From a virus, in IMG/VR virus record IMGVR_UViG_3300010883_027406, positions 1 to 64,000 of that record: a DNA stretch of 64,000 nucleotides; one strand, given 5' to 3'. The notes under the pieces were generated by a model. The model was given only the letters and a program-made list of their open reading frames with translations, searched no databases and had not been told where the DNA came from. Made by a program: the position numbers and the translations under genes. Shown here in pieces: positions 656 to 61,767 of this stretch (position 1 is the first letter of the stretch; each line of letters opens with the position of its first letter).

Positions 656-859
656 ATGGATAAAGATTATCTTATTTTATCAAGGCAAAATGGACTTTGT
701 CTTGTTGAAAAATTTTGTTGTATATGTCAGCATGATAAAACATATTGGATGTTCATAGATGATTTGGGATTTAATCCAATCAAACCTTGCCCTGATTGCA
801 GTCGTTATATTTCTATCATTGATACTTTAGGCGAGATAATAAATGGCGAAGAAGAATAA
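656..859 (+). CDS. Small zinc-ribbon-like protein, 67 aa
   Basis: I do not recognise a family. The 67-residue product has a CxxC pair in 'FCCICQHDK' and a second in 'PCPDCSRY', spaced as in a small zinc ribbon. The last 17 bases overlap the start of the uvsX-like gene, which suggests translational coupling. An AGGGG element lies about 14 bases upstream, a weak ribosome-binding site. It could be a small regulator or a recombination accessory protein, but only the cysteine pattern and the position support that. Confidence 0.55.
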   Translation: MDKDYLILSRQNGLCLVEKFCCICQHDKTYWMFIDDLGFNPIKPCPDCSRYISIIDTLGEIINGEEE

Positions 860-2036
860 AAAAACAACGGCATCCGACGACCCAGTAGCCGATCTGTTCT
901 CGGATCTTGCTGCCGATACGGGGGGCAGCGTCTTAGACGATATAGATAGTATTAAATATTTTGTGGATACTGGGAATCTGGCAGTTAACTTTGTTTGCAG
1001 CGGCAGATATATAAATGGCGGAGTTCCGGGCGGTAGACTTACAGAGATATATGGTCCGGCCTCATCAGGCAAATCTCTTATTGCTACTAATGTTATTCGT
1101 GGCTGCCAGAAGCTTGGTGGGTTCCCAATATATTTAGATTGTGAAAATACTATAAACAAAGATTTTGTTCAATCGGCTAGTCATGTCGATGTATCTAAAG
1201 TTATTAGATACACCCCCCAGACATTGGAGGAGGTGTTTACGAAGGTACACACGGTAATCAAGAAGGTTAGATCGGTTAAAGGCATAGAGGTTCCCATAGT
1301 AATTGTATATGACTCTATTAGTGTGTCGCCTAGTGCTAGAGAATACAGAGAGGTTGACCTTCCTGAAGGCTACACAGATGCTGATTGGAAGAGGATTGTT
1401 GGTGGCAAGGAACAACCTGGCGAGCGTGCCAAGATTTGCAGTCGGGAGTTTAGAAAGTTGACTCCTATATTGGAAGAACAGAATGCAACTATGGTTGTGA
1501 TTAATCAGACTCGTGAAAAAATAGGCGTTATGTTTGGTAGCCCTGAAACGACAGGAGGAGGGGGCAATGCGTTGCCTTTTTATGCTTCATGTCGTATTAG
1601 AACGCAAACTCAAAAGAAAATTGAGAATTCCAAGATCGGGTCTATTGTTGGAATTAATATGAAAATTAAAAATGTGAAAAATAAAACTTTTCGGCCTTTC
1701 ATGGAAACCGAAAATGTTCAACTTTATTTTGATCGTGGTATAAATCCGCTTTCTGGCCTTTTAAATACTTTGATTATGTCTGAGAGAATTGATGTAAGTG
1801 GAAAAGGAAGTTTTACTGTTAAAGAACCTTGGGCCGCTGGCGAGGAGATCAAGTTTAGAAGCAGTATGGCTCGCAATGATGTGCCGGAAGATGTTTTATA
1901 TCGGTGTCCTTCCTTGATTGATGCGGAGTCTAAAGAACAGGTGAAAGATTACTTGTCGGAGTATCAGTTGGCCATTCACAGAGAAGATGCTAAAGATTTA
2001 GAAGAAATAGAATTAAAAAGCGAAGAGGATCTCTAA
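843..2036 (+). CDS. uvsX: UvsX/RecA-like recombinase
   Basis: This 397-residue RecA-family ATPase should form filaments on single-stranded DNA and drive strand exchange in phage recombination-dependent replication. Walker A is 'GPASSGKS' at residues 71-78, and a hydrophobic Walker B strand ends in 'YDS' near 156-158. 'NQTREKIGVMFGSPETTGGGG' (about 221-241) corresponds to the L2 DNA-binding region of RecA/UvsX. The length fits UvsX (about 390) better than bacterial RecA (about 350). The C-terminus is acidic. It lies just downstream of the gp32-like gene, as expected for cooperating proteins. The start overlaps the preceding small gene and the stop overlaps the next ATG (TAATG). Confidence 0.93.
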   Translation: MAKKNKKTTASDDPVADLFSDLAADTGGSVLDDIDSIKYFVDTGNLAVNFVCSGRYINGGVPGGRLTEIYGPASSGKSLIATNVIRGCQKLGGFPIYLDCENTINKDFVQSASHVDVSKVIRYTPQTLEEVFTKVHTVIKKVRSVKGIEVPIVIVYDSISVSPSAREYREVDLPEGYTDADWKRIVGGKEQPGERAKICSREFRKLTPILEEQNATMVVINQTREKIGVMFGSPETTGGGGNALPFYASCRIRTQTQKKIENSKIGSIVGINMKIKNVKNKTFRPFMETENVQLYFDRGINPLSGLLNTLIMSERIDVSGKGSFTVKEPWAAGEEIKFRSSMARNDVPEDVLYRCPSLIDAESKEQVKDYLSEYQLAIHREDAKDLEEIELKSEEDL

Positions 2037-13614: not shown

Positions 13615-13950
13615 ATGCAATTTAAAGAATGGTTTACAGAAGATGCTGATTTTGTCACATCACTTAGTGATGAGCTTAATATTCGTCCTAAAGATTTAAA
13701 AAATATTATTGTTGCTAATTTCACGTTGAATGGTAAGAGTTATAATTTGGCTTCCATTGATGTTGAATTAGTTAAGAATGGCGCATTGATTAAGATAAAT
13801 AGTGATAAGCATCCTCATTTGGCACAGAAAATAGTGAAAAATGGCAAGCGAACTAGCCAGCCAGATAAAGATACGCACTTTGTTGACAAAGACACCCTCA
13901 CGAAAATTCTTATGCAAGGGTATGAGCAAGCAGGCGAAGCGCCAGTTTGA
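13615..13950 (+). CDS. Protein with capsid-targeting-like N-terminus, 111 aa
   Basis: The product starts 'MQFKEWFTEDADF', matching the M-x-F-K-x-W-[LF] start shared by several unrelated proteins here. It resembles the T4 internal-protein signal 'MKTYQEFIAE', which directs proteins into the prohead and is cut after hydrophobic-x-Glu; 'FTE' could be that site. The rest ('NIIVANFTLNGKSYNLASIDVEL') is beta-rich and of unknown function. A GAGCGAGG ribosome-binding site and a TATAATATATATTTA box lie upstream, in the divergent region shared with the minus-strand operon. Confidence 0.65.
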   Translation: MQFKEWFTEDADFVTSLSDELNIRPKDLKNIIVANFTLNGKSYNLASIDVELVKNGALIKINSDKHPHLAQKIVKNGKRTSQPDKDTHFVDKDTLTKILMQGYEQAGEAPV

Positions 13951-24898: not shown

Positions 24899-24912
24899 AA
24901 AGGAGCATTGTC

Positions 24913-26139
24913 ATGCCACGTCGAATCGAATCTGATCATAAAGACTTTAGGGACGTTGTCTCTGGCCGTATAAGAAAATCTCTTAAAAAGTATATTAATA
25001 CGGGCAAGGTTTTTAGAAGAAGATCTAAAAACGGAAAAGTAACAATATCCATTCCTAGAATTGATATTCCTAGACTTGTTTTTGGAGACAATGGGGATGG
25101 GGTAGGTCGTGGCGAAGGAAAGGAAGGGGACGTTGTAGGCAGAGACCCGCAAAAAGGCAAAGGGAATAAGGCGGGAGATCAAGAAGGAGAAGGGATATTA
25201 ATTAATTTAGATCTGGAGGATGTCCTTTATTTCTTGCAGGACGAATTAAAGCTTCCTAACATTAAACCCAAGCCTAATGAAACTTTTCAAGAAGTTAAAC
25301 TAAAATATAACAATATTGCTTTGACCGGACCTGAGTCTCTTCGTCATAATCGTCGAACTATGTTGCAGGCGTTAAAGCGAATGGCCGCAGGCGGCGAGTT
25401 AGACAAATTGCATTATATACCTGGGTATTCTGACCCGGTGCGATTAATCACTCCAATCAATTCTGACCGTCGTTATAAGCAATATACTGAGATTAAAGTT
25501 CCTGCTAGCAATGCTGTGATTTTCTTTGCTAGAGATGGTTCGGCTTCAATGGATCAATATAAATGTGATATTGTTTCTGATATGTCTTGGTGGATTGATG
25601 CTTGGATTAGACATTTTTATGAAAGAGTGGAAAGATGTTATATTTGGCATGACACAGTGGCCCAAGAGGTAGACGAGGAAACATTTTATAGATATCGTTA
25701 TGGTGGTGGGACAAAGTGTTCTTCTGCCATGAAACTTATTGGTAAGCAATTTGAGAATAGATTTCCTCCCAACAAATGGAACATCTATGTGATATATTTT
25801 ACTGACGGAGAAAATTGGCAAGAAGACAATGCTTCGTTTATAAAGTCCATACAGGATTTAACTAATGGTGGGGATGTTAATTTTGTGGGAATCTCACAGG
25901 TGATGGCTTATAACTATGAACAAAGTTTAAAAAATACCGTAGACGAATCTTTATCAAAAGGCGTTCTTGATAAAGATCTGGTGAGGACGACAGATATCTC
26001 TCCTGCTGATGGGTTATCGGCTCTTAGTGACGATGAGCGAGACGAGGCTATTAAAAATTCTATTATAGATTTGCTGGGTGATGCATCGAAACCTGTTGCA
26101 AAGCCTGTTGCTGTTGATCCATCTGCTGGGGGAATTTAA
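24913..26139 (+). CDS. yeaH: YeaH/YhbH-like protein (DUF444, von Willebrand A-like)
   Basis: The 408-residue protein has a Gly/Lys-rich disordered N-terminal region and then a vWA-like domain. The MIDAS metal motif is visible: 'FFARDGSASMDQYK' (about 204-217) with DxSxS, a Thr in 'GGGTKCSSAM', and an Asp in 'YFTDGENW'. The family accompanies PrkA. It starts 15 bases after the prkA stop with an AAGGAG site, and its stop overlaps the ATG of the SpoVR-like gene, so the operon is tightly coupled. Confidence 0.9.
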   Translation: MPRRIESDHKDFRDVVSGRIRKSLKKYINTGKVFRRRSKNGKVTISIPRIDIPRLVFGDNGDGVGRGEGKEGDVVGRDPQKGKGNKAGDQEGEGILINLDLEDVLYFLQDELKLPNIKPKPNETFQEVKLKYNNIALTGPESLRHNRRTMLQALKRMAAGGELDKLHYIPGYSDPVRLITPINSDRRYKQYTEIKVPASNAVIFFARDGSASMDQYKCDIVSDMSWWIDAWIRHFYERVERCYIWHDTVAQEVDEETFYRYRYGGGTKCSSAMKLIGKQFENRFPPNKWNIYVIYFTDGENWQEDNASFIKSIQDLTNGGDVNFVGISQVMAYNYEQSLKNTVDESLSKGVLDKDLVRTTDISPADGLSALSDDERDEAIKNSIIDLLGDASKPVAKPVAVDPSAGGI

Positions 26140-27740
26140 TGAGCAAGTTTATGCATGGTTCCTCGGTTTTATTGGGGAACAATACTATTCCAGGTGTTTC
26201 AATACCTGCGGAGTTAGAAGTTCTTATCCCTACGATATTGCAGGAATGTCGAGATTTTGGATTAGACTTTTATCCTACTGTGGTTCAAATGCTCACTTAT
26301 GACGAGATGAGCGAAATTGCTAGCTATGGAGGATTTCCTGTTAGGTATCCTCATTGGAAATGGGGAATGGAATACGAGGAGTTGCAGCGTGGTTATGAAT
26401 ATGGGATGCATCGGATATATGAACTTGTCATTAACACATCTCCATGTTACTTATATTGTTTGAATTCCAATACTTTAGTTGACAACATCACTGTTATCGC
26501 CCATGCGACTGGGCATAATGACTTTTTTAAGAATAATATATTCTTTGCTCCCACTAGTCAAAATATGATGAATCGTTTGGCAAACAATGGAACACGCATT
26601 AGAAGATATATGAATCGTTGGGGGAAAGAAAAAGTTACTGAATTCATTGATCATGTGCTTAGATTGGATACGTTGGTCGATCCTGTTAATGCTTGGTCTA
26701 AAAAAGAAATTAAAGATCCTGTAATTAGAGATTCAAGAGTATACAATCACCCTAAACGGTTAAAAGTCGAACATGGTTATATGGAGCCATGGGTTAATAC
26801 CGAGAAATGGATTTCCCGCCAGCATGAGGATATTCAAAGAGGAGAGACAGCCGCAGAGTTAGGGCTGTTCACAGAGCCGCAGAGAGACATCTTGGGGTAT
26901 TTAAGAGATTATGCTCCTTTAAAACCCTGGCAGGCTGATATAGTCGCTATGTTGTATGAGGAAGCTATGTATTTTGCCCCTCAAAGGGCGACAAAGGTTT
27001 TGAATGAAGGTTGGGCGAGTACGATTGATTTTGAAATTATGGCCAAGAGAGGCTTTGTGGGATTGGGCCAAGCAACTCATGATTGTGGAATTATTGATTA
27101 TGCTCGGCATAAAACTGGAGTGTTGGGCGGAAAATATAGCATGAACCCTTATAAGTTAGGGTTTTATCTTTTCATGGATATTGAAGAAAGATGGAATAAG
27201 GGGAGATTCGGAGCCGATTACGAAAATTGTCAGAATATGAAGCAAAAGGAAAATTGGGATGAAGGTGTTGGATTAGGCAAAGACAAAATGTTTGAGGTAA
27301 GAAAGTATTATGATGATGTAAATGCTATTATGGAATTTTTTACGGAAGACTTTTGTAATAAATATGAGTTTTTTGAATGGGAAAAATTTCCTAATGGGGA
27401 ATACAAGATAAAGAGTCGTGATCATAAATCTATTAAATCTAAATTAGTTCGCCGCCACTTAAACGGCGGATTGCCAGCGATACAATTAGTTGATCCTAAT
27501 TATCAAAACAAACGACGGTTTTTACTCCAGCATCAGTGGGATGGTCGGGAGCTTTATCTTCCATATGTTAAGGCCACATTAACATCCATTTATGCTTTGT
27601 GGCAAAGTGATATATTATTAGCTACTAGGAATCGAGACAACGAGGAGATTGTTTATTTTTGTAATGGCGTTAATGAAGAGGATGTTTTTGTGCTTACTAG
27701 AGAAGAGTGCGAGGGATTATCGTCTGAGTTGGAAGAATAG
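26139..27740 (+). CDS. spoVR: SpoVR/YcgB-like protein
   Basis: The 533-residue length is typical of SpoVR. Recognisable features are 'FDFYPTVVQMLTYDEM'-like start (reading GLDFYPTVVQMLTYDEMSEIA), 'YPHWKWGMEYEELQRGYEYG', 'VIAHATGHNDFFKNN', and 'GWASTIDFEIMAKRGFVG'. SpoVR is needed for spore cortex formation in Bacillus and works with PrkA/YeaH in other bacteria. The ATG overlaps the yeaH stop. A complete PrkA-YeaH-SpoVR set in a phage suggests takeover of this host stress pathway. Confidence 0.92.
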   Translation: MSKFMHGSSVLLGNNTIPGVSIPAELEVLIPTILQECRDFGLDFYPTVVQMLTYDEMSEIASYGGFPVRYPHWKWGMEYEELQRGYEYGMHRIYELVINTSPCYLYCLNSNTLVDNITVIAHATGHNDFFKNNIFFAPTSQNMMNRLANNGTRIRRYMNRWGKEKVTEFIDHVLRLDTLVDPVNAWSKKEIKDPVIRDSRVYNHPKRLKVEHGYMEPWVNTEKWISRQHEDIQRGETAAELGLFTEPQRDILGYLRDYAPLKPWQADIVAMLYEEAMYFAPQRATKVLNEGWASTIDFEIMAKRGFVGLGQATHDCGIIDYARHKTGVLGGKYSMNPYKLGFYLFMDIEERWNKGRFGADYENCQNMKQKENWDEGVGLGKDKMFEVRKYYDDVNAIMEFFTEDFCNKYEFFEWEKFPNGEYKIKSRDHKSIKSKLVRRHLNGGLPAIQLVDPNYQNKRRFLLQHQWDGRELYLPYVKATLTSIYALWQSDILLATRNRDNEEIVYFCNGVNEEDVFVLTREECEGLSSELEE

Positions 27741-33111: not shown

Positions 33112-33467
33112 GGGCTGGAAATGGTATCGATTGGCTGTTGAGTTCTTGAGTTGCCTGTAGGAGTTGATCGGAAGGCTCCTTAAAAATCCGATTAAAAATT
33201 TAGTTGACAAAACTAATTTCGCTATGGCTGCTTAATTATAAGCAACCCAAGTTTCAAAGGTCTGCCAGTGACGTTTGACAACTTGCCGCAATACTGGCTG
33301 CGTTCAAAACAAATCAAACTACTTTTGAACTAAGATTCGTTGTTTGATAGTTGATTTAAACCTTTGTTTGTTGTGGTTTAATGATGCGAAACTCAAACAT
33401 CAAACTATACAGGTAGACGCTTTTGAATAGGTAGTGCAAGACACGGGTTCGACTCCCGTCCGGTCCA
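33112..33467 (+). ncRNA. ssrA: Transfer-messenger RNA (tmRNA), one-piece
   Basis: The 5' end GGGCTGG pairs with CCGGTCC at 33460-33466, giving a seven-pair acceptor stem with the G3-U pair that marks alanine tRNAs. The T arm reads ACGGG-TTCGACT-CCCGT, and the discriminator A is at 33467; CCA is not encoded. Inside lies a tag frame after TAGTT: codons from 33206 give D-K-T-N-F-A-M-A-A and a TAA at 33233. With the charged Ala the tag would be ADKTNFAMAA, similar to bacterial degradation tags. The RNA would rescue stalled ribosomes and mark proteins for proteolysis. It is flanked by a promoter and a strong terminator. Confidence 0.93.
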
Positions 33468-33471
33468 CTGA

Positions 33472-33505: not shown

Positions 33506-33550
33506 TTATGATGTTGTTTTTTCAATTTATATGCATTAAACTTGATTTTC

Positions 33551-36052
33551 ATGGATTCTAAAGAAAAATTGATTGGTTTGTGCGCTCAATTTCTTAAAAA
33601 GAAGGGGCTTGATGATGATGCGCATAAGAACAGATTAAAAGAAGAATTAAAAGAAATTGAGATTCAAAACGAATACGATTATTTTGTAGATCTTTATGAA
33701 GAAGGAATCAAAGCTAGCAATAATGAAAATAATTTGCTTATTCCTTATCTTTTGGGCATGGTAGATGAGTTTGATATAAATTCTAGTTATGGTTTTGTTT
33801 ATGGCGATTTCCCTGATGTCGATATAGATTATCTTCCCACGGTGCGAGATTATTTAAAAAATGAATGGGCACCGAAGTTTTTTGGAGAAGACAAGGTTTG
33901 TAATATTGGAAATTATACTACTTTTGGAATTAAGAGTGCTTTAATTGACATGGTTCGGGTGCATTGTGGCAACAGGGAAGAGATGCTTAATATGACAACC
34001 CAGCTTGGGATTAAGGATAGTGCTGGTAATAATTTAACTTGGGAAAAAGCTTTAGAGGAAAATCCATTATTATTTAAATATTGTGAAGAGAATCCTGATA
34101 TATCAATTGCCGCACAAAAAATGATTGGAAGAAATCGTGGCATGGGGATGCATGCTGGTGGTTTAATCGTGTCTAGTTCTCGGATTGACAATCTTGTCCC
34201 TCTTGTTAGGGGAAAAGATAAAACTCAAGTTTCTGCGTGGGTAGAGGGGTTGAGCGGTCAGGACTTACAGCCTGTTGGGTTGGTGAAGTTTGATCTTTTG
34301 GTTATTACAAATAACCTTCAGGTGGCCAAGTGTTGTAAACTAATTAAAGAGCGACACGGTGTTGAACATATTAATGCCCTGCCAGGTCAGTCAGATTGGT
34401 CTGATATAGCTTATTTGAATGATCCCAAAGCGTTGGAAATGGCTAATCGTGGAGATCTTAAATGTGTTTTTCAATTTGATAGTGATGGAATTCGTCAACT
34501 TGCAAAAATGGGAGGCGTAACATCATTTGATGATTTGGTTGCTTATACTTCTCTCTATCGACCTGGCCCGTTGCAAGAGAAAATGCATGACACTTATACG
34601 AATAGGAAAAGAGGAATAGAAGAATATGAAATGAATCCTTTGATAGAGCCTGTTTTGGGTGTTACTTATGGCGTAATGGTCTATCAGGAACAGATAATGC
34701 AGATGTTAAATGTGGTGGGAAATATTCCGCTTAGAGATTGTGAGATTGTTAGGAAGGCAATCTCTAAGAAGCAAGTAGAAAAATTTACTAAATATAAGGA
34801 AATGTTTGTTGAGAATGGGCAATTTAATTTAGATGAATCTAAAGAGAATGTAGAAGAGTTGTGGAAGCAAATAGAAGCATTTGCTGGTTATGGTTTTAAT
34901 AAAAGCCATGCTTGTGCTTATACTTATTTGTCATCTCGTTTGTTGTGGTTAAAGGCTCATTACCCGATTGAGTTTTTTGCGTCTATTTTAAGCTGTGAGG
35001 GAAATTCGGATAAAATTAGAGAATATAAAATTGAATCATCGCAACATGGTGTAGAGGTTTGTCCTTTGGACATTAATAAGTCTAATGTTGAGTTTAGTAT
35101 AGTTGATGATAAGATATTTTTTGGGATATCAAATATAAAAGGAATTGGAGAAGTTCCCGCTGCGAAAATTGCTTCCGGTGGGCCTTATAATTCGTTTAAG
35201 GAATTTCTTAATTCCTTTGGCACGGATGCGAATGTGATAAAGCCGTTTGTGTGTTTGAAAGTTTTTGAAGATGCCGAACCAGTTAAGCTTTATAAGTACT
35301 ATGAGTTTTATAAGTCCCAAAGAAAGAAGATAGAGGACCGTAGGAAAAGATTTCAAAAGTCAATGGAAAAGTATCAAGAAAAATTGCGGGATCTTTTGCC
35401 GGGTTTAGAAGAATTTGCTGTTTTCGATGACAGGTATTTTGATAAGTGGGAGGAAAAGTTTAATGTTGATCGTTGGAAGGAATTGGACAAATTAAGAAAA
35501 AGACGTAATCGTTCTATTGTAAATTTCAATGAAAAGGAAAAGCTGGGATCAGATATTGTGGATGTTTCTGAGTTTGAAGATGAGGGATATGAAATATATG
35601 ATGATGATCTTTTGGAATTGTTAAATAATGAACAGTTGGCTGAGTATAAGTTTTATGGATTTGGCTGGATTCATCCTTTGCAAAATAGTCCTGATTTTGA
35701 TGGCAACAAAACGTTTGATCATTTTAGAGCGGAACATAATGTTTCTACTTGGGGCGTGGAAGTTGTAGTTGTTAAAGTAGAGCAAAAACTTTCAAAGAAT
35801 AAAAAAACCAAGTATTGGTTGATAGAGGTAGAAGATGCAAATTGGGAAAGGAATAGGGTGATTTTTTGGTCGGATGATTGGGTTCGTTGGAAGGAGGATG
35901 TGCAGGTGGGGAATATTTTAAAAATGAGAATGTCAAAACCTGATCCTCCTTTTAAGAGCTACAAGTTTGACTCTCAGCCGAGACATAAAAGGCATTTAAT
36001 TCCTAAAGAAAAATCTAATGACTTTAGAATACTAATGATGAACAAAGGATAA
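33551..36052 (+). CDS. dnaE: DNA polymerase III alpha subunit, C-terminal part (palm to OB fold)
   Basis: The product is about 833 residues from the ATG at 33551. After roughly 90 unique residues it resumes the DnaE core with the catalytic pair in 'YGDFPDVDIDYLP', then the fingers region 'GRNRGMGMHAGGLIVS', the third acidic residue in 'GLVKFDLLV', and 'VFQFDSDGIRQLAKMG', 'YRPGPLQEKM', 'YQEQIMQML' and 'GFNKSHACAYTYLSSRLLWLKAHYP'. It ends with an OB-like domain ('YWLIEVEDANWERNRVIFW'). Together with the N-half at 29288 it covers a complete alpha chain. There is no sign of intein sequence at the break. The two polypeptides probably assemble. Confidence 0.92.
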   Translation: MDSKEKLIGLCAQFLKKKGLDDDAHKNRLKEELKEIEIQNEYDYFVDLYEEGIKASNNENNLLIPYLLGMVDEFDINSSYGFVYGDFPDVDIDYLPTVRDYLKNEWAPKFFGEDKVCNIGNYTTFGIKSALIDMVRVHCGNREEMLNMTTQLGIKDSAGNNLTWEKALEENPLLFKYCEENPDISIAAQKMIGRNRGMGMHAGGLIVSSSRIDNLVPLVRGKDKTQVSAWVEGLSGQDLQPVGLVKFDLLVITNNLQVAKCCKLIKERHGVEHINALPGQSDWSDIAYLNDPKALEMANRGDLKCVFQFDSDGIRQLAKMGGVTSFDDLVAYTSLYRPGPLQEKMHDTYTNRKRGIEEYEMNPLIEPVLGVTYGVMVYQEQIMQMLNVVGNIPLRDCEIVRKAISKKQVEKFTKYKEMFVENGQFNLDESKENVEELWKQIEAFAGYGFNKSHACAYTYLSSRLLWLKAHYPIEFFASILSCEGNSDKIREYKIESSQHGVEVCPLDINKSNVEFSIVDDKIFFGISNIKGIGEVPAAKIASGGPYNSFKEFLNSFGTDANVIKPFVCLKVFEDAEPVKLYKYYEFYKSQRKKIEDRRKRFQKSMEKYQEKLRDLLPGLEEFAVFDDRYFDKWEEKFNVDRWKELDKLRKRRNRSIVNFNEKEKLGSDIVDVSEFEDEGYEIYDDDLLELLNNEQLAEYKFYGFGWIHPLQNSPDFDGNKTFDHFRAEHNVSTWGVEVVVVKVEQKLSKNKKTKYWLIEVEDANWERNRVIFWSDDWVRWKEDVQVGNILKMRMSKPDPPFKSYKFDSQPRHKRHLIPKEKSNDFRILMMNKG

Positions 36053-41408: not shown

Positions 41409-41663
41409 ATGGCTAAAAATGTGAGTATTGTCAGCCTTTCTCTGAATCCAGAGATGCACCAAAGGCTCAAGCGTTGCGCTAAACAAAAAGGCGATTCTGT
41501 CTCTAAAGTTGTTAGAGACTTAATTGATAAGTATTTGATAAGCGATGACGATGTTATTCCGGTTATTTTAAAAATACCTGTGGAATTTAAAGGTGACAGT
41601 AAAGAGCTTGAGAAGTGGCTTGACATTAAGGTCAATGCTATTTTGCAGGTGTTGGGTAAATGA
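41409..41663 (+). CDS. Ribbon-helix-helix (CopG-like) protein, 84 aa
   Basis: The N-terminus 'VSIVSLSLNPEMHQRLKRCAKQKGDSVSKVVRDLIDKYL' is a strand-helix-helix as in CopG/Arc regulators. The rest forms a small separate segment. It lies between bS21 and deformylase and is preceded by GAGGT, so it is in the same operon. A DNA-binding regulator is likely. Confidence 0.7.
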   Translation: MAKNVSIVSLSLNPEMHQRLKRCAKQKGDSVSKVVRDLIDKYLISDDDVIPVILKIPVEFKGDSKELEKWLDIKVNAILQVLGK

Positions 41664-42154
41664 AGTTAGTTGAAATTGATGAGATCCCAACCACATGTGA
41701 TGAAATTCCGCTTGATGATTTGTTAAAAGTTTATGCATCATGTTTAATGATGTTGTCAATCTGCAAAGAAAGCAACGGGGTTGGTCTTTCTGCTTTTCAA
41801 GTTGGAATTCCGTGGAAGTTGTTTGTTGTCAATTATGCTGGACTTGAAGGGTTTTATATTGATTGTGAGTATGAGGCTCTTGAAGATGAAAAAATAAGCT
41901 CTATTGAAGGGTGTCTGTCCCTTCTTAATGAAGATGGTTCTTGTAAGAGATTTAAAGTTGAGCGGGATCGGCGTGTTAGAATAATTGGTAAAAAATTGGT
42001 TTTATCTGATGGATCTGTTGGTTTGGCTGTTCATGATGTTGATATGGACTTGGATGGTGCGATAAGTATAATATTTCAACATGAGATTGACCATCATCAT
42101 GGAATATTAATTAGTGATCATGGTGACGAATATTACATTCATGGGGTGAGCTAA
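41660..42154 (+). CDS. def: Peptide deformylase
   Basis: The enzyme removes N-formyl groups from new proteins. All three motifs are present: 'GVGLSAFQ' (40-47), 'EGCLS' (83-87, metal Cys) and 'HEIDH' (141-145). It has 164 residues, near the short phage/organellar type, with the C-terminus trimmed. Its ATG overlaps the stop of the CopG-like gene. Phage deformylases are known from cyanophages. It groups with bS21 as a translation module. Confidence 0.92.
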   Translation: MKLVEIDEIPTTCDEIPLDDLLKVYASCLMMLSICKESNGVGLSAFQVGIPWKLFVVNYAGLEGFYIDCEYEALEDEKISSIEGCLSLLNEDGSCKRFKVERDRRVRIIGKKLVLSDGSVGLAVHDVDMDLDGAISIIFQHEIDHHHGILISDHGDEYYIHGVS

Positions 42155-42593: not shown

Positions 42594-42698
42594 ATGGAAA
42601 AGTTGACTGTTTTGATGTGTGACATCTATTTGCTTGGCGCCATAATCGGCCTCGCAATCCCGGTACTTTTGAGTGTCTTCGGGGAAAAACAAGTTTAG
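42594..42698 (+). CDS. Small single-span membrane peptide, 34 aa
   Basis: The frame encodes 'MEKLTVLMCDIYLLGAIIGL' followed by a hydrophobic run and ends 'FGEKQV'. One membrane span is evident. It overlaps the convergent lipoprotein gene by four bases. Short, so certainty is limited. Confidence 0.4.
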   Translation: MEKLTVLMCDIYLLGAIIGLAIPVLLSVFGEKQV

Positions 42699-43201
42699 TT
42701 GTCTTTCTTTTGAGCTTTAACCATCAAGTGATATACTTTGGCTTCTACATTGGTATGCCTAGCGGCCAAGAACACTTTGTCTTCAAGTGCGGGATCTTTT
42801 TTTCCGACTATTTCTTGAGCTAGAATTTCGGCAACCTTTTCTGATTTTTTAGCTTTATCTCTATAGTGCCAAAGCAACATGCCTACAATGGAAAGGGAAA
42901 ACACCATTATAAGCGCCCCATCTCCTTGTAGTATTTGAATGCCGGAATTGTTATTAGATGATAATCTGGCATTTAAGTTAACCCATCCTTGTTGCAAGGC
43001 TTCTAATTCGCTATCAGTGATGGTGTTTTCTGCTCTTAAGTTGCCTAATTCGGTTGATATTCCGTTTTGAATGCTTCTTATTTCATCTATTTTTCCATTT
43101 TGATTATCAATATGTTCTTCCTGTCGAGGGGATAGATTGTTGCATCCGCTCACCGCCACTAGTGAAATTACAAATATTAATGATAAAATGATTTTTTGCA
43201 T
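42695..43201 (-). CDS. Lipoprotein with coiled coil and membrane span
   Basis: The 168-residue protein has a lipoprotein signal ending in 'VAVSGCN' (lipobox Cys20), a helical segment ('IDEIRSIQNGISTELGNLRAE') and a transmembrane stretch ('GALIMVFSLSIVGMLLWHY'). A cytoplasmic tail follows. The combination of lipobox and internal span resembles some spanin or envelope proteins. A TAGGAGC site lies before the ATG. Confidence 0.7.
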   Translation of the reverse strand: MQKIILSLIFVISLVAVSGCNNLSPRQEEHIDNQNGKIDEIRSIQNGISTELGNLRAENTITDSELEALQQGWVNLNARLSSNNNSGIQILQGDGALIMVFSLSIVGMLLWHYRDKAKKSEKVAEILAQEIVGKKDPALEDKVFLAARHTNVEAKVYHLMVKAQKKDN

Positions 43202-43293: not shown

Positions 43294-43683
43294 ATGGATT
43301 TGCAACCTGCTGTTTACGAAAGTAGTTTTTTAAAAAATAACGCTCTTGATTTTGCTGAAGACATTAGGAATTTGTCTAAAGAGTATATTGCTAATTTCTT
43401 CAAGTATGAAGAAATACATTTGGGTGGTAAAATTCCTAATGAAATTATGCATTCTTCTAATTATATTGATCTTGTAATTAATGCCGATATTACTTCTGGG
43501 GTAGCTGCGATTTATAAGGCATTAGAGAAATATGAATTAGATGAGGAAGAACAAATTAAATTAGTTTTAGGCATTTTGAATAAGTGTGCCAGTCGAGGGG
43601 TGCCTAAATTTTTTGCCGCAGGGGTAACAATTATGTACATGGAGATTTGTAAGGGTGTTGAAGTTTCTGAATTAGTAGAATAA
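43294..43683 (+). CDS. Unknown protein, 129 aa
   Basis: A TTAGGAG site precedes the ATG. The protein is helical ('NALDFAEDIRNLSKEYIANFFK') with 'EEEQIKLVLGILNKCASRG' and ends acidic. It is the first gene of a three-gene unit leading to the IDO-like gene. Function unknown. Confidence 0.6.
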   Translation: MDLQPAVYESSFLKNNALDFAEDIRNLSKEYIANFFKYEEIHLGGKIPNEIMHSSNYIDLVINADITSGVAAIYKALEKYELDEEEQIKLVLGILNKCASRGVPKFFAAGVTIMYMEICKGVEVSELVE

Positions 43684-43684
43684 A

Positions 43685-43993
43685 ATGAGTTCTGATCATA
43701 ATTTATTATTTTTGTCTGGTAGGTTTTTAGAGATCAATTTATCAAAAGACAAAATGTATTTATTTAAATATTTTAAAGCCGATGCGCAAAAGCAGTTTGT
43801 GGTTTATTATTTAGAATTTGGAGAATTGACTCATTTTGTTGATCACACTGGTTATAAGATTACAAAGAGATGGCTGTTTAAATTACAGTCCAAACTTTTG
43901 AAGCTTTTAGAAGTTCATAATAAATTTAAACAAGAAATGGACACAGAAAACTTGGCTTTGTTAAAGATGGGCAAATATGACTTGGGAAATTAA
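43685..43993 (+). CDS. Unknown protein, 102 aa
   Basis: Starts one base after the previous stop. It has strands ('NLLFLSGRFLEINLS', 'FVVYYLEFGELTHFVDH') and a terminal helix. It overlaps the IDO-like gene by 17 bases. Family unknown. Confidence 0.55.
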   Translation: MSSDHNLLFLSGRFLEINLSKDKMYLFKYFKADAQKQFVVYYLEFGELTHFVDHTGYKITKRWLFKLQSKLLKLLEVHNKFKQEMDTENLALLKMGKYDLGN

Positions 43994-45068
43994 AAGAGGG
44001 TTTCTTCCTGGCAATGATCCTTTAATTAGTTCCGATGATCTTAAAGATTTGGATGAATTGGGGAAGAACATCCCTGAGTGGATGAGCCAAAGGAGAGTTA
44101 GGGAAGAGTTGGTGCATGGGTTAAGAGAAGCGATTGATCTCAGCCGAGGGTCGTGGCGAAGTGGTGATGAATTAGAACATGCAATGCGACTTTATTCGTA
44201 TTTTGCTAGTTCTTACGTTTTTGCAACTAATGAAGAACCGGCATCCAGAATCCCTAAGGAGATATCAGTTCCTTTGGTCGATCTTGCAGGCGTAGTTGGA
44301 CGAAAGCCAATTCTTTCTTATGCTTCCTATTGTCTTTATAATTGGAAAAAACTTGATCCCAACAAAGATATAGTTGTAGATAATTTAGATTTAATTCAAT
44401 ATTTTACACATGGAGATAATTCAAGTCATGAGGCGTGGTTTATATTAGTTCATGTAGATATTGAGGCTCGTGCGGCTGAAGGCATTGGTGCCATAATAGA
44501 TTATTTTTCTGATCCCACCGAAGTTCTTTCTGATTGTTTATCTAAGTTGAAATTGAGTTTTCAAAAAGTAAACGCAACTATGTTGCGGATGGCAGAGGGG
44601 TGTTCTCCTGATTTTTATTATAATAAGGTTAGACCTTATATTTTCAGTTTTGAGAATGTAGTTTATGAAGATTGCTTTGATAATAAGCCTCAAACATTTC
44701 GTGGAGAAACGGGGGCACAAAGTTCTATTGTTCCGGCTGTAATTGCTGCATTAGGAATTAAACACAAAGAATCTATTTTGACAAAACATCTTGATGTAAT
44801 GAGAGATTATATGCCTCCATTTCATCGTAATTTTATTTTAGAGCAAGAAAACGACAGGAATTTAAGAGATTTTGTAAAAACTGATGAGGAAAAACATCTT
44901 TATAATGATTGCGTACAGGAGGTATTAGATTTTAGGAAGACACATTTAGAGTATGCCATAAATTATATTCATAAAAAAGTTGATAATCCGAAAGGGACGG
45001 GAGGAACTCCTTATATGGAGTGGCTTTCTAAGCTAGTTGATGAGACTGAAAATTTTTTAATTGAATAA
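43977..45068 (+). CDS. Indoleamine 2,3-dioxygenase-like haem enzyme
   Basis: The 363-residue protein reads as IDO, which opens the indole ring of tryptophan to N-formylkynurenine using haem and oxygen. Landmarks: 'GRKPILSYASYCLYNWKKLD' (108-127), 'VDNLDLIQYFTHGDNSSHEAW', 'WFILVHVDIEA', 'FYYNKVRPYIFSFENVVYE' with Arg219 at the substrate-binding position, 'FRGETGAQSSIVPAV' (241-255) and 'MRDYMPPFHRNFI'. The haem ligand is His323 in 'RKTHLEYAINY', the equivalent of His346 in human IDO1, and 'GTGGT' (340-344) is the conserved C-terminal loop. Length is slightly under bacterial IDO. I know of no established role for IDO in phages. Confidence 0.88.
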   Translation: MTWEIKRGFLPGNDPLISSDDLKDLDELGKNIPEWMSQRRVREELVHGLREAIDLSRGSWRSGDELEHAMRLYSYFASSYVFATNEEPASRIPKEISVPLVDLAGVVGRKPILSYASYCLYNWKKLDPNKDIVVDNLDLIQYFTHGDNSSHEAWFILVHVDIEARAAEGIGAIIDYFSDPTEVLSDCLSKLKLSFQKVNATMLRMAEGCSPDFYYNKVRPYIFSFENVVYEDCFDNKPQTFRGETGAQSSIVPAVIAALGIKHKESILTKHLDVMRDYMPPFHRNFILEQENDRNLRDFVKTDEEKHLYNDCVQEVLDFRKTHLEYAINYIHKKVDNPKGTGGTPYMEWLSKLVDETENFLIE

Positions 45069-45674: not shown

Positions 45675-46091
45675 ATGAAATTAAGCGGAAATAACAAAAA
45701 CGTAAGAGATGTAAAATCTTCTATAGAAGTTTTTCTTGAGGAAGAAGAAACTCTGGTTGTTGCTGTGGCAGTTAGTGAAAATGAAGACGATAATAAAGTT
45801 TGTCGTATAAAGTGCGATGGGATAGCAATTGGGGGATATGCTTATGATTCATCTTCTGATGTGTGCTATGTGGAAGGTTGCGACCACATATTGTTGGGCT
45901 TAATACCTATTTCATTTACTATGAAAATTAAGGGTGTTTCTAGATACCAAATTTCCATTCCTCTTCCTGAGCCTGTTGTCAAAAGGCATCTTGATGCCGG
46001 TCAAAAGAGATTGCTGAAAAACTTTTCTTCTAGATTTAGTCAAGATAAATATAAAATAGATTTTTTTCAGATGACAGGGGTTAATTCGTGA
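45675..46091 (+). CDS. Unknown beta-rich protein, 138 aa
   Basis: Starts one base after the membrane protein stop. Strands alternate with acidic loops ('VFLEEEETLVVAVAVSENEDDNK'). It ends overlapping the deaminase start (GTGA). Function unknown. Confidence 0.55.
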   Translation: MKLSGNNKNVRDVKSSIEVFLEEEETLVVAVAVSENEDDNKVCRIKCDGIAIGGYAYDSSSDVCYVEGCDHILLGLIPISFTMKIKGVSRYQISIPLPEPVVKRHLDAGQKRLLKNFSSRFSQDKYKIDFFQMTGVNS

Positions 46092-46660
46092 CAAAAAAAA
46101 TTGTTCATCCTAGAAATGTCCCCTCGAAGCATGACTACTATATGGGACAGGCTTTTTGGGCTTCATCTAGATCAAAAGATCCTCGGACTCAATGTGGGGC
46201 GGTAATAGTTAGTGATGAAAATCGTCCTCTGGGTATGGGATATAATGGCCCGCCTAAAAAAATTGATGATTCTAAAATGGATTGGGGACGAAAAAACGAG
46301 ACAAAACATACTGCTTTGGATCGTGCGGGAAAGTACCCATTGATTAAGCACGCAGAAGAGAATGCCATTAAATATTCGTCCGAATGCCTTTCAGGGGCGA
46401 CGTTATATGTTACTGGTCCACCGTGTTCTAATTGTATGTTAAGTATTGTTGACGAGGAAATTTCAAAAGTGATTTATTTTCCTTATTTGTCCTCAGATTC
46501 GGGTTCTATGTTGGCCGATAGTGATGACTGGGAGATATGTCAAGATATTGCTCGGTTGGGGCATGTTGGGATTGTTGCTTTTGAAGGCAATTTAAATTGG
46601 ATGCGGGATCAAATGGAAATGTTCAACAACATGGGCATATTTAAGAGTCTTAAAAATTAG
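46088..46660 (+). CDS. dcd: dCMP deaminase
   Basis: The zinc enzyme deaminates dCMP to dUMP for ThyA. The 190-residue protein has the His-Ala-Glu motif in 'LIKHAEENAI' (His88, Glu90) and 'GPPCSNCM' (Cys113, Cys116). It starts at a GTG coupled to the previous gene. Together with dUTPase and ThyA it channels pyrimidines to dTMP. Confidence 0.93.
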   Translation: MTKKIVHPRNVPSKHDYYMGQAFWASSRSKDPRTQCGAVIVSDENRPLGMGYNGPPKKIDDSKMDWGRKNETKHTALDRAGKYPLIKHAEENAIKYSSECLSGATLYVTGPPCSNCMLSIVDEEISKVIYFPYLSSDSGSMLADSDDWEICQDIARLGHVGIVAFEGNLNWMRDQMEMFNNMGIFKSLKN

Positions 46661-48070: not shown

Positions 48071-49696
48071 ATGCCTTCCGTATCTGATTTTTTAATCGAG
48101 CGGCTAGAGAACGCTAAGGTCGGGCATGTCTTTGGTCTGCCTGGGGATTATGTATTAAATTTTTACAATAAGCTTTCCAAGTCTAAAGATATAAATCTTA
48201 TAAATACAACCGATGAAAGCCATGCTGGATTTGCTGCTGACGCTTATTCTCGGATTAAAGGAATTGGCTGTGTTTGTGTGACTTATAGCGTTGGTGGATT
48301 GAAGGTAGTTAACGCCACCGCTTGTGCCTTTGCTGAGAAATCTCCATTGATAGTTATATGTGGGTCTCCTGGGGTTAAGGAGCGTGAGAGCGGAGTTCTT
48401 TTGCATCATATGGTTAGAAGTTTTGAGAGTCAAAAAGAAGTATTTGACAACATAACATGTGCAAGTGTAGTTCTAGACAATCCTGCGACTGCTGGTTACG
48501 AAATTGATAGGGTTTTCGAGGCTCTTCATTATTACAAGCAACCAATATACATTGAGCTTCCACGAGATATAGCCGACAAGCCAATTGGGTATGATGTCAA
48601 GCTTGGAACTCCTAAATCCCCTGAAAGTGATGTTCAGAATTTAAATGAATCTCTTGAGGAGGTTGTTGATTGGATTGAGGGTGCTGAAAATCCTGTTATT
48701 TTAGCCGGTGTTGAACTTGCTCGTTTTGGCCTTGGAAAGGAATTGGTTCGATTCGCAGAGAAGACCAATATACCCATCGCAAGCACATTATTGAGCAAGT
48801 CAGTAATAAGTGAAACTCACCCTTTGTTTTTAGGAGTTTATGCAGGCAACACTAGTGAACAATTGGTTAAAGAGTCCGTTGAAAATTCTGATTGTCTTTT
48901 AATGTTTGGAGCAATGTTGACTGATATGACGCTTGGTTTTATGCCATCCAAGTTCAAAAAAAGGAGAACGGTTTCTTGCTCTATTGATTCTTTGAAAGTT
49001 AAAAATCATGTTTATACAGATGTTGTTTTTGAGGATTTTGTTTGTGGTTTGTTTAAATCTGAAATAACTAAAAAGCCCAACCCTGACGTTCCTAAGATTA
49101 AAGTTAAAAAATATAAATCTGTGAAAAACAATGCTTTGACTTCAACTAGAATTTTTGAAAAAATAGGTTCTATTCTTGACGAAAACATGGCAATAGTTTG
49201 CGATATAGGCAATTCTTTGTTTGGTGCAATTGATTTAAGAGTCCACCACAGCAATCAATTTCTTTCACCTGCTTTTTATACTTCTATGGGATTTGCCATA
49301 CCTGGCATTCTTGGACTGGGGATGGCTGCTCCTAATTATAGGGCAATTGCGATATTGGGGGACGGTGCATTTCAAATGTCATGCACAGAGTTGAGTACTT
49401 GTATTGACAATGATCTTAATCCTATTATTATCGTTCTTAATAATGGGGGGTATACAACAGAAAGATTTTTGTTGGACGGTCCTTTTAATGACATTAGAAA
49501 TTGGGAATATCATAAAATAACTGAAATGTTAAATGGTGGCGATGGAGTAAAGATAGAGACGGAAGGTGACTTGGACAAAGCGTTTGAGCAAGCTTTGGCA
49601 AGCAAAGAGCTTTTTATAATTAATGCTATTGTTGACCCTAAAGATATTTCCCCTGCCTTAGAAAGAATGGCAAAAGGTTTATCTAAGAGGGTGTGA
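48071..49696 (+). CDS. Thiamine-diphosphate 2-oxoacid decarboxylase (PDC/IPDC type)
   Basis: The 541-residue enzyme should decarboxylate a 2-oxo acid (pyruvate, indolepyruvate or phenylpyruvate) to an aldehyde. It has the catalytic Glu49 in 'TTDESHAGFAADAYSRI', the twin His112-His113 in 'GVLLHHMV' that mark the decarboxylase rather than the synthase branch, and the cofactor motif 'AILGDGAFQMSCTELS' with 'VLNNGGYTTERFL' (about 430-465). Aldehyde dehydrogenase lies two genes on. A GGAGG site precedes the ATG. Substrate choice cannot be settled by eye. Confidence 0.9.
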   Translation: MPSVSDFLIERLENAKVGHVFGLPGDYVLNFYNKLSKSKDINLINTTDESHAGFAADAYSRIKGIGCVCVTYSVGGLKVVNATACAFAEKSPLIVICGSPGVKERESGVLLHHMVRSFESQKEVFDNITCASVVLDNPATAGYEIDRVFEALHYYKQPIYIELPRDIADKPIGYDVKLGTPKSPESDVQNLNESLEEVVDWIEGAENPVILAGVELARFGLGKELVRFAEKTNIPIASTLLSKSVISETHPLFLGVYAGNTSEQLVKESVENSDCLLMFGAMLTDMTLGFMPSKFKKRRTVSCSIDSLKVKNHVYTDVVFEDFVCGLFKSEITKKPNPDVPKIKVKKYKSVKNNALTSTRIFEKIGSILDENMAIVCDIGNSLFGAIDLRVHHSNQFLSPAFYTSMGFAIPGILGLGMAAPNYRAIAILGDGAFQMSCTELSTCIDNDLNPIIIVLNNGGYTTERFLLDGPFNDIRNWEYHKITEMLNGGDGVKIETEGDLDKAFEQALASKELFIINAIVDPKDISPALERMAKGLSKRV

Positions 49697-51452: not shown

Positions 51453-52976
51453 ATGTATATCGGTATGAATTATGTTAATGGCGAATTTTTGCCAAATCGT
51501 TCTGACTTTTCTGTCAGTAGCCCAGCCAATGGAAGTCATTTAGGTGAATTTCCTTTAACTAGGAAAGGTGAAGTTTCTGATGCCGTAGCTGTTGCGAAAC
51601 AGTCTTTTAAAAGTTGGAAACATGTCAGTAGAGTTAATCGGGCTGATCTTTTTGATAGATTATCTCAATTGATTAAGAGAGATACTTCTGCGTTGGCGGA
51701 TGTTATTTCCTATGAAACAGGTAAAAACAGAAATGAATCATATGCCGAAGTGATAGAGTCCTTGCATATGTGTCAGTATGTTGCGGGATCAGGGAGACTT
51801 CCATATGGAAAGTTGGTTGGTTCCGAGTTGGCAAGTAAATCAGCAAGGGTTTTTCGCAAGCCCAAAGGTGTTGTGGCAGTAATTTCTCCATGGAATTTTC
51901 CATTGGCCATTGGTTCTTTTTGGTCTGCGGCACCTGCAATTGCAGAGGGCAATTGTGTGGTACACAAGCCTAGCGAATTAACGCCAATGACATCGCAAAT
52001 GGCGGCCAAATTGTATGGTGAAGCTGGGTTCCCTGATGGGGTTTATAATTTGATACACGGTGCGGAAGAAACAGGTAAAAATTTAGTTTCTAATCATGAT
52101 GTCTCTTGCATATTATTCACAGGCAGTGCGGAAGTAGGACAGGAGATAAGAAAACATTGTGCGACAACATGGCATAAGACCTGTTCTTGTGAGATGGGCA
52201 GCAAATCAGCCACGATGGTTTTTGAAGATGGGAATTTTGATCTTGCCACAGAAGTTTCTGTAGCCAGTGCATTTAAATTGTCGGGACAAAGATGTGTTTC
52301 TTCAAGCAGAATATTAATTCAAAGAAGTATTTATGATAAGTTTTGTTCTGCCTTTGCTAAGGCAGCATCTCAACTCCGCACAGGAGATGTGTTTTTAGAT
52401 GATGATGTATATTATGGGCCTTTAATTTCTCATGATGCTTTGGAGAAAGTTGAAAGTTATAATTCTCAAGTTAGATCTGCAAGTGAATCTAGTGAAGATG
52501 TTAATGTTCTTTTGGACAGCCGAGACGGTCACTTTCAAACATCCGATGGTAATTTCTTGTCGCCATTCGTTTATCAAGCAGAATGGTGGAATGATGTTGA
52601 TGAATTAGGATGCAAGGCGTGCACAAGATCTTATTTGAAAGAAGAGGTGTTTGGGCCTCATGTGGCGTTGGTTCCTTTTGATGATTTGAATGATGCCATT
52701 AAAATTTATAATGACACCCCATATGGATTGGCTTTGGGGGCTGTCACCGACGATTTTAGAAAACATCGCATTCTTGAGGAAGAATGTAATACTGGCATGT
52801 TGTACATCAATGGTGGTAGCATTGCCGCAGAGAGTCATTTGCCGTTTGGAGGTATTGGAAAAAGCGGCAATGGCTGGAAGTCTGCCGCAGGTACATATCA
52901 GGCGGTCACAGAAGAAATATCTGTTACTACTAACTATGAAAAAGAAGTTGAGTGGGCACAGGGGATGAAAAGCTAA
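51453..52976 (+). CDS. NAD(P)-dependent aldehyde dehydrogenase
   Basis: The 507-residue enzyme oxidises an aldehyde to the acid. It has 'VAVISPWNFPLAIG' (catalytic Asn), 'HKPSELTPMTS', 'ILFTGSAEVGQEI', the Glu in 'CEMGSKSATMVF', and the nucleophile in 'GQRCVSSSRILI' (about Cys279). With the decarboxylase upstream it could turn a 2-oxo acid into an acid one carbon shorter, for example pyruvate to acetate or indolepyruvate to indoleacetate. The stop overlaps the next ATG. Confidence 0.93.
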   Translation: MYIGMNYVNGEFLPNRSDFSVSSPANGSHLGEFPLTRKGEVSDAVAVAKQSFKSWKHVSRVNRADLFDRLSQLIKRDTSALADVISYETGKNRNESYAEVIESLHMCQYVAGSGRLPYGKLVGSELASKSARVFRKPKGVVAVISPWNFPLAIGSFWSAAPAIAEGNCVVHKPSELTPMTSQMAAKLYGEAGFPDGVYNLIHGAEETGKNLVSNHDVSCILFTGSAEVGQEIRKHCATTWHKTCSCEMGSKSATMVFEDGNFDLATEVSVASAFKLSGQRCVSSSRILIQRSIYDKFCSAFAKAASQLRTGDVFLDDDVYYGPLISHDALEKVESYNSQVRSASESSEDVNVLLDSRDGHFQTSDGNFLSPFVYQAEWWNDVDELGCKACTRSYLKEEVFGPHVALVPFDDLNDAIKIYNDTPYGLALGAVTDDFRKHRILEEECNTGMLYINGGSIAAESHLPFGGIGKSGNGWKSAAGTYQAVTEEISVTTNYEKEVEWAQGMKS

Positions 52977-61110: not shown

Positions 61111-61113
61111 TTG

Positions 61114-61767
61114 ATGGCAAGAAAACCAACTACCAAAAAAAGTCCTCGTAAAACTTTTCATATAGACTTCCTTAATCCTGCACAAAAGGAAGCTTATGAT
61201 TGTTTTTGCGAGAATGATGTTACATTTTTATTAGGACCCGCAGGAGTGGGTAAGTCATATTTGGCAACAGCTTTTGCTATAAACGAAGTTCTTTCTAAGA
61301 GAAAAAAAAGAATTATATTGACTCGCCCTATAGTTGAGGCTGGTGAAAGCTTAGGATTTTTGCCTGGCACTTTTGATGAAAAAGTCAATCCATATATGCT
61401 TCCTTTATTTGACGCAATAACCAAATTGACTGGTTCTGAATCCCAAAAAGAGGCTATAGAGAAAGCTATTGAAGTAGCTCCTTTAGCATATATGAGGGGA
61501 AGGTCTTTTGATGATTCTGTTTGTATATTTGATGAAGCTCAGAACGCTACTAAACAACAATTGAAGCTTTTTTTAAGTCGTTTTAATGATAATAGTAAAG
61601 TAATTGTTACTGGCGATCCACGACAAAGTGATTTGTTGGGCGATGTAGCATTAACATATGTTGTTTCTAGACTAGAGAGTATCGACGGCATTGGCGTTAT
61701 TGAATTTGGCTCAGATTCTATTGTTCGGCATCCTTTAGTCTCTGCAATTCTTGAAAGACTAGAGTAA
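61114..61767 (+). CDS. phoH: PhoH-like ATPase
   Basis: The protein has Walker A 'GPAGVGKS' (41-48) and the PhoH signature 'LTRPIVEAGESLGFLPGTFDEKVNPY', then 'CIFDEAQNATKQQLKLFLSR' (Walker B) and 'VIVTGDPRQSDL'. PhoH proteins are common phage genes of uncertain role, linked to RNA handling and phosphate stress. I use the ATG at 61114; a TTG at 61111 is in frame. Confidence 0.95.
   Translation: MARKPTTKKSPRKTFHIDFLNPAQKEAYDCFCENDVTFLLGPAGVGKSYLATAFAINEVLSKRKKRIILTRPIVEAGESLGFLPGTFDEKVNPYMLPLFDAITKLTGSESQKEAIEKAIEVAPLAYMRGRSFDDSVCIFDEAQNATKQQLKLFLSRFNDNSKVIVTGDPRQSDLLGDVALTYVVSRLESIDGIGVIEFGSDSIVRHPLVSAILERLE

Follow-up and report, generated by a model that had tools for sequence, protein, structure and literature searches.

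The window analysed here, a stretch of 64,000 nucleotides from the virus record IMGVR_UViG_3300010883_027406, encodes a protein which, as surely as its sequence and predicted fold allow, is a phage-borne member of the indoleamine 2,3-dioxygenase (IDO) family (Table 1). The open reading frame starts with ATG and comprises 363 codons without internal stop, while the opposite strand is dense in stop codons. PF01231 is the one Pfam family matched by the protein (E=3e-62; 211 bits versus a cut-off of 26; residues 6-336), and a genome-level search of the complete virus record of 85,364 bases finds a single IDO copy. The DNA pattern encoding GTGGTP occurs once in the window, compared to an expectation of 0 after shuffling. 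A sequence search of the PDB returned 25 matches, all of them IDO1 or IDO2 entries, which include the solved human IDO1 and IDO2 structures. An AlphaFold2 model built from 46 aligned relatives reaches a mean pLDDT of 91 and a pTM of 0.91, and among solved structures it agrees best with human IDO1 in complex with L-Trp (7p0r; TM 0.89). The first-pass annotation, made from the letters alone, had described an intact gene carrying the IDO landmarks in order, including the haem ligand His323 and the GTGGT loop, and had proposed a PF01231 profile search and a structure prediction as checks; the frame is indeed uninterrupted, the landmarks are present in the alignment described below, and the strong profile match and the IDO1-like fold agree with that description.

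Table 1. Genes of the window discussed in the text.
Feature	Position	Strand	Basis or remark
UvsX-like recombinase	843..2036	+	marks contig as phage
Phage DNA polymerase (phrog_405)	33542..36052	+	start of block collinear with 340-kb contig
Two conserved hypothetical proteins, 384 and 382 aa	38876..41166	+	kept in block; no Pfam match
Peptide deformylase	41660..42154	+	kept in block
Putative lipoprotein	42695..43201	-	kept in block
Conserved hypothetical 129-aa protein	43294..43683	+	same operon-like run as IDO
Hypothetical 102-aa protein	43685..43993	+	end overlaps IDO start by 17 bases
IDO family protein, 363 aa	43977..45068	+	ORF, PF01231, alignment, AlphaFold2 model
dCMP deaminase-like protein	46088..46660	+	kept in block
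Thiamine-diphosphate (TPP) 2-keto-acid decarboxylase	48071..49696	+	best model TIGR03394
Aldehyde dehydrogenase (PF00171)	51453..52976	+	also in collinear block of 340-kb relative
PhoH-like protein	61111..61767	+	inside collinear block

Alignment of 92 IDOs, in which the window protein is set against 91 prokaryotic and viral relatives, reveals invariant pocket residues (His323, Arg320, Arg219, Tyr115, Trp154, Phe155, His159, Thr341, and Thr344 in the numbering of the phage protein). His323, the predicted proximal haem ligand, aligns with human His346, Arg219 as predicted partner of the substrate carboxylate with human Arg231, and Arg320 as predicted propionate arginine with human Arg343. The GTGGT loop occupies residues 340-344 and contains Thr341 and Thr344, and the distal aromatic pocket is kept (Tyr115, Trp154, Phe155, and Tyr214). 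Human Ser167 is replaced by His159, and a histidine is likewise found in all prokaryotic relatives aligned. Arg219, His323, Arg320, Tyr115, Trp154, Phe155, and His159 are kept in every viral copy tested, and in seven viral copies 96 residues are invariant, about half of the positions otherwise differing. With human IDO1 and IDO2 the phage protein has in common the fold, the proximal haem histidine, the substrate arginine, and the GTGGT loop, whereas identity in the structural match is about 25%, several loops are shorter, and Ser167 and Asp274 are replaced by His159 and Ile256, respectively.

The second of these replacements, which goes beyond the first-pass annotation, leaves the phage protein without an equivalent of an acid that in human IDO1 forms a salt bridge to Arg343 and whose change to alanine harmed activity (PMC6072487). 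All seven members of the viral clade tested carry Leu, Gln, or Ile at this position. Of 64 sequences compared, 44 carry Asp here, whereas neither Asp nor Glu is present in 19, which include nine of the nine members of the clade of the window IDO as well as cellular IDOs from Methylocystis, most Planctomycetota relatives, and gammaproteobacteria. Because some cellular IDOs also lack the acid, which therefore does not define the family, we regard its loss as a trait of a subclade and not as proof of a dead enzyme. A scan for an acid gained in compensation yielded weak candidates only (positions 38, 138, 226, and 336-337 of the window IDO). The acid-less clade offers a natural test of why human IDO1 needs Asp274.

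IDO lies within a viral genome and is flanked by viral genes. The window phage encodes UvsX, a gp32-like single-strand binding protein, a DnaB-type helicase, DNA polymerase, and PhoH, and a second IMG/VR record of the same phage (G001; 95,283 bases) carries IDO in place, the overlap of the two records being 99.8-99.99% identical (99.98% over 17 kb around IDO and its flanks). Together both records amount to about 123 kb and do not close. Neither gp23 nor, in five records including this phage, the Terminase_6C profile found a match in the available sequence of the window phage, and therefore its head genes probably lie on missing sequence. Two further features of the window were noted: three consecutive genes at 22802-27740 match PrkA serine protein kinase, YeaH/YhbH, and SpoVR/YcgB with scores below the equivalog cut-offs, forming a whole bacterial module of the stress/sporulation type in a phage, and a phage-encoded tmRNA with the tag DKTNFAMAA is situated at 33112-33468.

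A collinear block of some 20-30 genes including IDO is common to the window and four large phage contigs of 134, 340, 436, and 511 kb (L110, L108, L116, and L109, respectively), all four of which have a match to the T4-type gp23 major capsid protein. This conservation, like the missing acid, was not part of the first-pass annotation. Around IDO, most of the gene order agrees: two conserved hypothetical proteins come first, followed by peptide deformylase, the lipoprotein, small genes, and IDO, and then by a structural-looking gene and the TPP decarboxylase. In the comparison with the 340-kb contig, collinearity extends from the DNA polymerase to about 70.8 kb. The dCMP deaminase is found in three of the four other contigs, with no match in the flank of G009. 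Relatives of the 102-aa protein lie directly upstream of, and overlap, IDO in three of the four (G006, G008, and G009), and the ORF at this place in G007 has no BLAST match to the 102-aa protein of the window; in all four the upstream ORF overlaps the IDO start by 4 bases. Because of this overlap, translation of the upstream gene and IDO may be coupled. The TPP decarboxylase is present in five of five large phages with the block and is 56-62% identical to that of the window among those aligned. It scores 360 bits against the indolepyruvate/phenylpyruvate decarboxylase model, below the equivalog cut-off of 554.5, and for this reason is called indolepyruvate/phenylpyruvate-decarboxylase-like only; that it might use an indole substrate is no more than a lead.

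The first-pass annotation had also considered that the segment might be a host contaminant and had proposed a search in other large phage genomes. Such a search finds IDO at the same locus in four of them. Contamination, a chimeric assembly, or a decaying passenger gene might be imagined, given that many bacteria carry IDO, with 456 confirmed stretches in the genome collection, and that the contig of the window is not complete. However, a second assembly with identical flanks and the location of IDO at the same place in the four other large phages rule out contamination or a chimera, and every complete viral copy is full-length with intact pocket residues, which speaks against decay, so that this explanation is extremely improbable. 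As IDO is fixed at one locus in phage contigs of 134-511 kb and its pocket is kept at about 50% overall identity, cleaving tryptophan, or binding of O2 at the haem, seems to pay for the infecting phage.

Searches with single sequences retrieve the same phage or nothing, and alignments are needed in order to find relatives of the phage IDO. Searched with profiles, a set of 2.9 million viral contigs yields IDO in 12 records beyond that of the window (G001, L016, L017, L018, L108, L109, L110, L116, L112, L113, L114, and L121), corresponding to about 11 distinct viruses if the window is counted; L121 is a partial copy and was left out of the tree. The L017 contig carries gp23 and portal genes and the L016 contig a terminase. 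With the available sequence of the window phage, the L017 phage shares IDO only and the L016 phage a handful of genes. A second IDO tree of 64 rows places the window protein, L016, L017, L108, L109, L110, L116, and two Planctomycetota sequences in one clade (support 100/97). Within it L109 branches first (95/88), and therefore the Planctomycetota copies (L019/L020) nest inside the viral ones. This hints at a transfer of IDO from phage to bacterium, although the end branches are long and inner support is mixed. A separate clade next to SAR86 (100/98) comprises L018, L112, and L113, and the existence of two separate viral clades indicates that phages acquired IDO at least twice. The second, SAR86-related set of phage IDOs consists of L112, L113, L114, L018, and L121; in L113 and L114 IDO adjoins an ORF of 904 amino acids which, from reading its sequence, we take to resemble a T4-type DNA polymerase.

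Compact PF01231 proteins of Bacteria and Archaea (Planctomycetota, Methylocystis, and haloarchaeal plasmids) have the same family, length, and pocket residues as the phage IDO and are 34-48% identical to it, those of Methylocystis and most Planctomycetota likewise lacking the Asp274 equivalent. In contrast to these cellular proteins, some of which are encoded beside kynureninase on haloarchaeal plasmids, the phage IDOs reside in a phage block without pathway partners. Known auxiliary metabolic genes of phages similarly represent host-type metabolic enzymes in a phage genome, but the phage IDO differs from them in that neither PHROGs nor a GenBank phage collection of 50,697 records contains a match. 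Nothing relevant on IDO of phages or giant viruses was found in the literature either, and the phage IDO is provisionally regarded as undescribed, because most papers in subscription journals and bioRxiv were beyond the scope of the literature search.

Tryptophan dioxygenases have been studied mainly as immune or metabolic enzymes of animals. Based on the observed family, fold, pocket residues, viral location, and conservation of position and pocket, our preferred reading, to which we assign a probability of about 0.6, is that the protein is a haem-dependent L-tryptophan 2,3-dioxygenase belonging to the IDO family and encoded by a lineage-conserved auxiliary metabolic gene of large T4-like phages. 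Taken for itself, activity as a tryptophan dioxygenase is quite probable in view of sequence and model. Haem made by the host would be bound at His323, Arg219 would hold the carboxylate of tryptophan, and O2 would be inserted into tryptophan, yielding N-formylkynurenine in the infected cell. Profile searches of the phage records, which for formamidase covered the PF04199 (cyclase) type, gave no match for this type or for kynureninase (TIGR01814), and on this basis the idea that the phage encodes more of the kynurenine pathway was rejected. Because no enzyme for the next step was found in the phages, N-formylkynurenine might feed host enzymes leading to kynurenine, anthranilate, and NAD, or else the removal of free tryptophan might itself be the point. 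Feeding of host kynurenine/NAD metabolism and tryptophan depletion are about equally plausible roles, neither being favoured by more than a minority share, and oxygen or haem chemistry or another indole substrate share what is left. These candidate roles include those put forward in the first-pass annotation (tryptophan drain, kynurenine production, and oxygen consumption). The phage IDO connects the study of phages with that of kynurenine/NAD metabolism and of tryptophan starvation.

Tryptophan as substrate of the family is supported by the kynureninase gene (kynU) adjoining some haloarchaeal plasmid IDOs. Beside the acid-less IDOs no kynureninase was found in the flanks examined, those of the large-phage copies by profile, so that tryptophan as substrate of the acid-less IDOs rests on fold and pocket. 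The IDO family includes a non-enzymatic myoglobin of abalone (PMC4191572). By this precedent, the phage protein could, like the IDO-derived myoglobins of molluscs, be a haem protein that binds O2 and has lost dioxygenase activity, or could act on another indole, and the absence of an Asp274 equivalent from the whole clade agrees with such ideas, as the co-conserved decarboxylase-like gene would with another indole route. However, Arg219 and other residues of the substrate pocket are kept in every copy, the substrates of IDO and of the keto-acid decarboxylase are not the same, and the score of the latter falls below its equivalog cut-off, which makes this a rather unlikely explanation.

Auxiliary genes of phages usually contribute one limiting step. 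The phage might accordingly add the first, rate-limiting step of a route to kynurenine and anthranilate or of de novo NAD+ synthesis that the host completes, for example against NAD+-depleting defences. Besides this general precedent, the kynU neighbours of the haloarchaeal plasmid IDOs would fit such a supply, and so would a gene of the nicotinate/nicotinamide phosphoribosyltransferase family in one relative. However, that gene was found in only one of six records, so that an NAD salvage partner of IDO was discarded, and the nearest bacterial relatives have no kynU nearby. As an account of the gene in competition with the preferred reading, supply of kynurenine or NAD+ is possible but not favoured.

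To a similar degree one may consider IDO as a tool for depleting tryptophan, by which the free tryptophan pool would be emptied and translation of the host or of rivals stalled, the phage itself keeping a supply of Trp-tRNA. IDO stands alone in the phages, later genes of the pathway not having been found, and a lone tryptophan dioxygenase (TDO) exists in obligate predatory bacteria as well (PMC4646340); there, the same reaction is inferred and the rest of the pathway is also missing, although TDO is a family separate from IDO and serves as an analogy only. Three large IDO-carrying relatives encode short TrpRS-like proteins (L122, G006 76429-77010; L123, G008 128274-128858; L124, G007 152847-153257) with a KMSKS motif and apparently without the C-terminal anticodon-binding part, L124 having 245 amino acids, and the 340-kb relative possesses a tRNA-Trp. 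In this 340-kb phage, however, TrpRS is nothing special, being accompanied by other synthetase-like genes and about 50 tRNA genes, and in the window phage neither TrpRS nor tRNA-Trp was found; a specific pairing of IDO and TrpRS is suggestive at most. A further point against depletion is that a Trp-poor phage proteome is not seen, the Trp content of phage proteins being 1.4-1.7% without matched control. In BFVD, a library of viral structures, a single IDO fold was found, and it forms one half of a 768-aa protein of Harvfovirus (A0A3G5A0E3; TMq 0.88, 24% identity to the phage IDO) which is named tryptophan--tRNA ligase. Judged by this name, IDO and TrpRS are apparently fused in this protein, unlike in the phages, which adds to the hint of an IDO-TrpRS pairing; Harvfovirus is a giant virus of eukaryotes.

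Interferon-treated human cells employ an IDO/TrpRS pair. A more far-reaching version of depletion parallels this pair and the apparent giant-virus fusion: IDO would be a core weapon of a lineage of huge phages, destroying free host tryptophan (and O2) while the TrpRS-like protein and tRNA-Trp of the phage supply its own translation, and Planctomycetota would have obtained their nearest IDOs from phages. We consider this combination improbable.

Several further features were observed in the window phage and its relatives. The 340-kb phage has two tRNA genes with a CTA anticodon (called Pyl; L139:2011-2084 and 2708-2778, i.e., G006 ~182011 and ~182708), which may represent amber suppressors and may indicate stop-codon recoding. 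Other sequence of the window phage encodes a CrtO/CrtI-like oxidoreductase (L011:17662-19248), an arginine dihydrolase/dimethylargininase-like protein (L014:4009-4797), and a dehydrogenase of the sulfolactate/malate type (L013:17829-18857). Many proteins begin with N-termini similar to MKTFSQWLE or MNFKKWF (window positions 13615, 14022, 56473, 60131, and 60559; L014:2156, 2758, and 13542), which presumably resemble the capsid-targeting sequences of T4.
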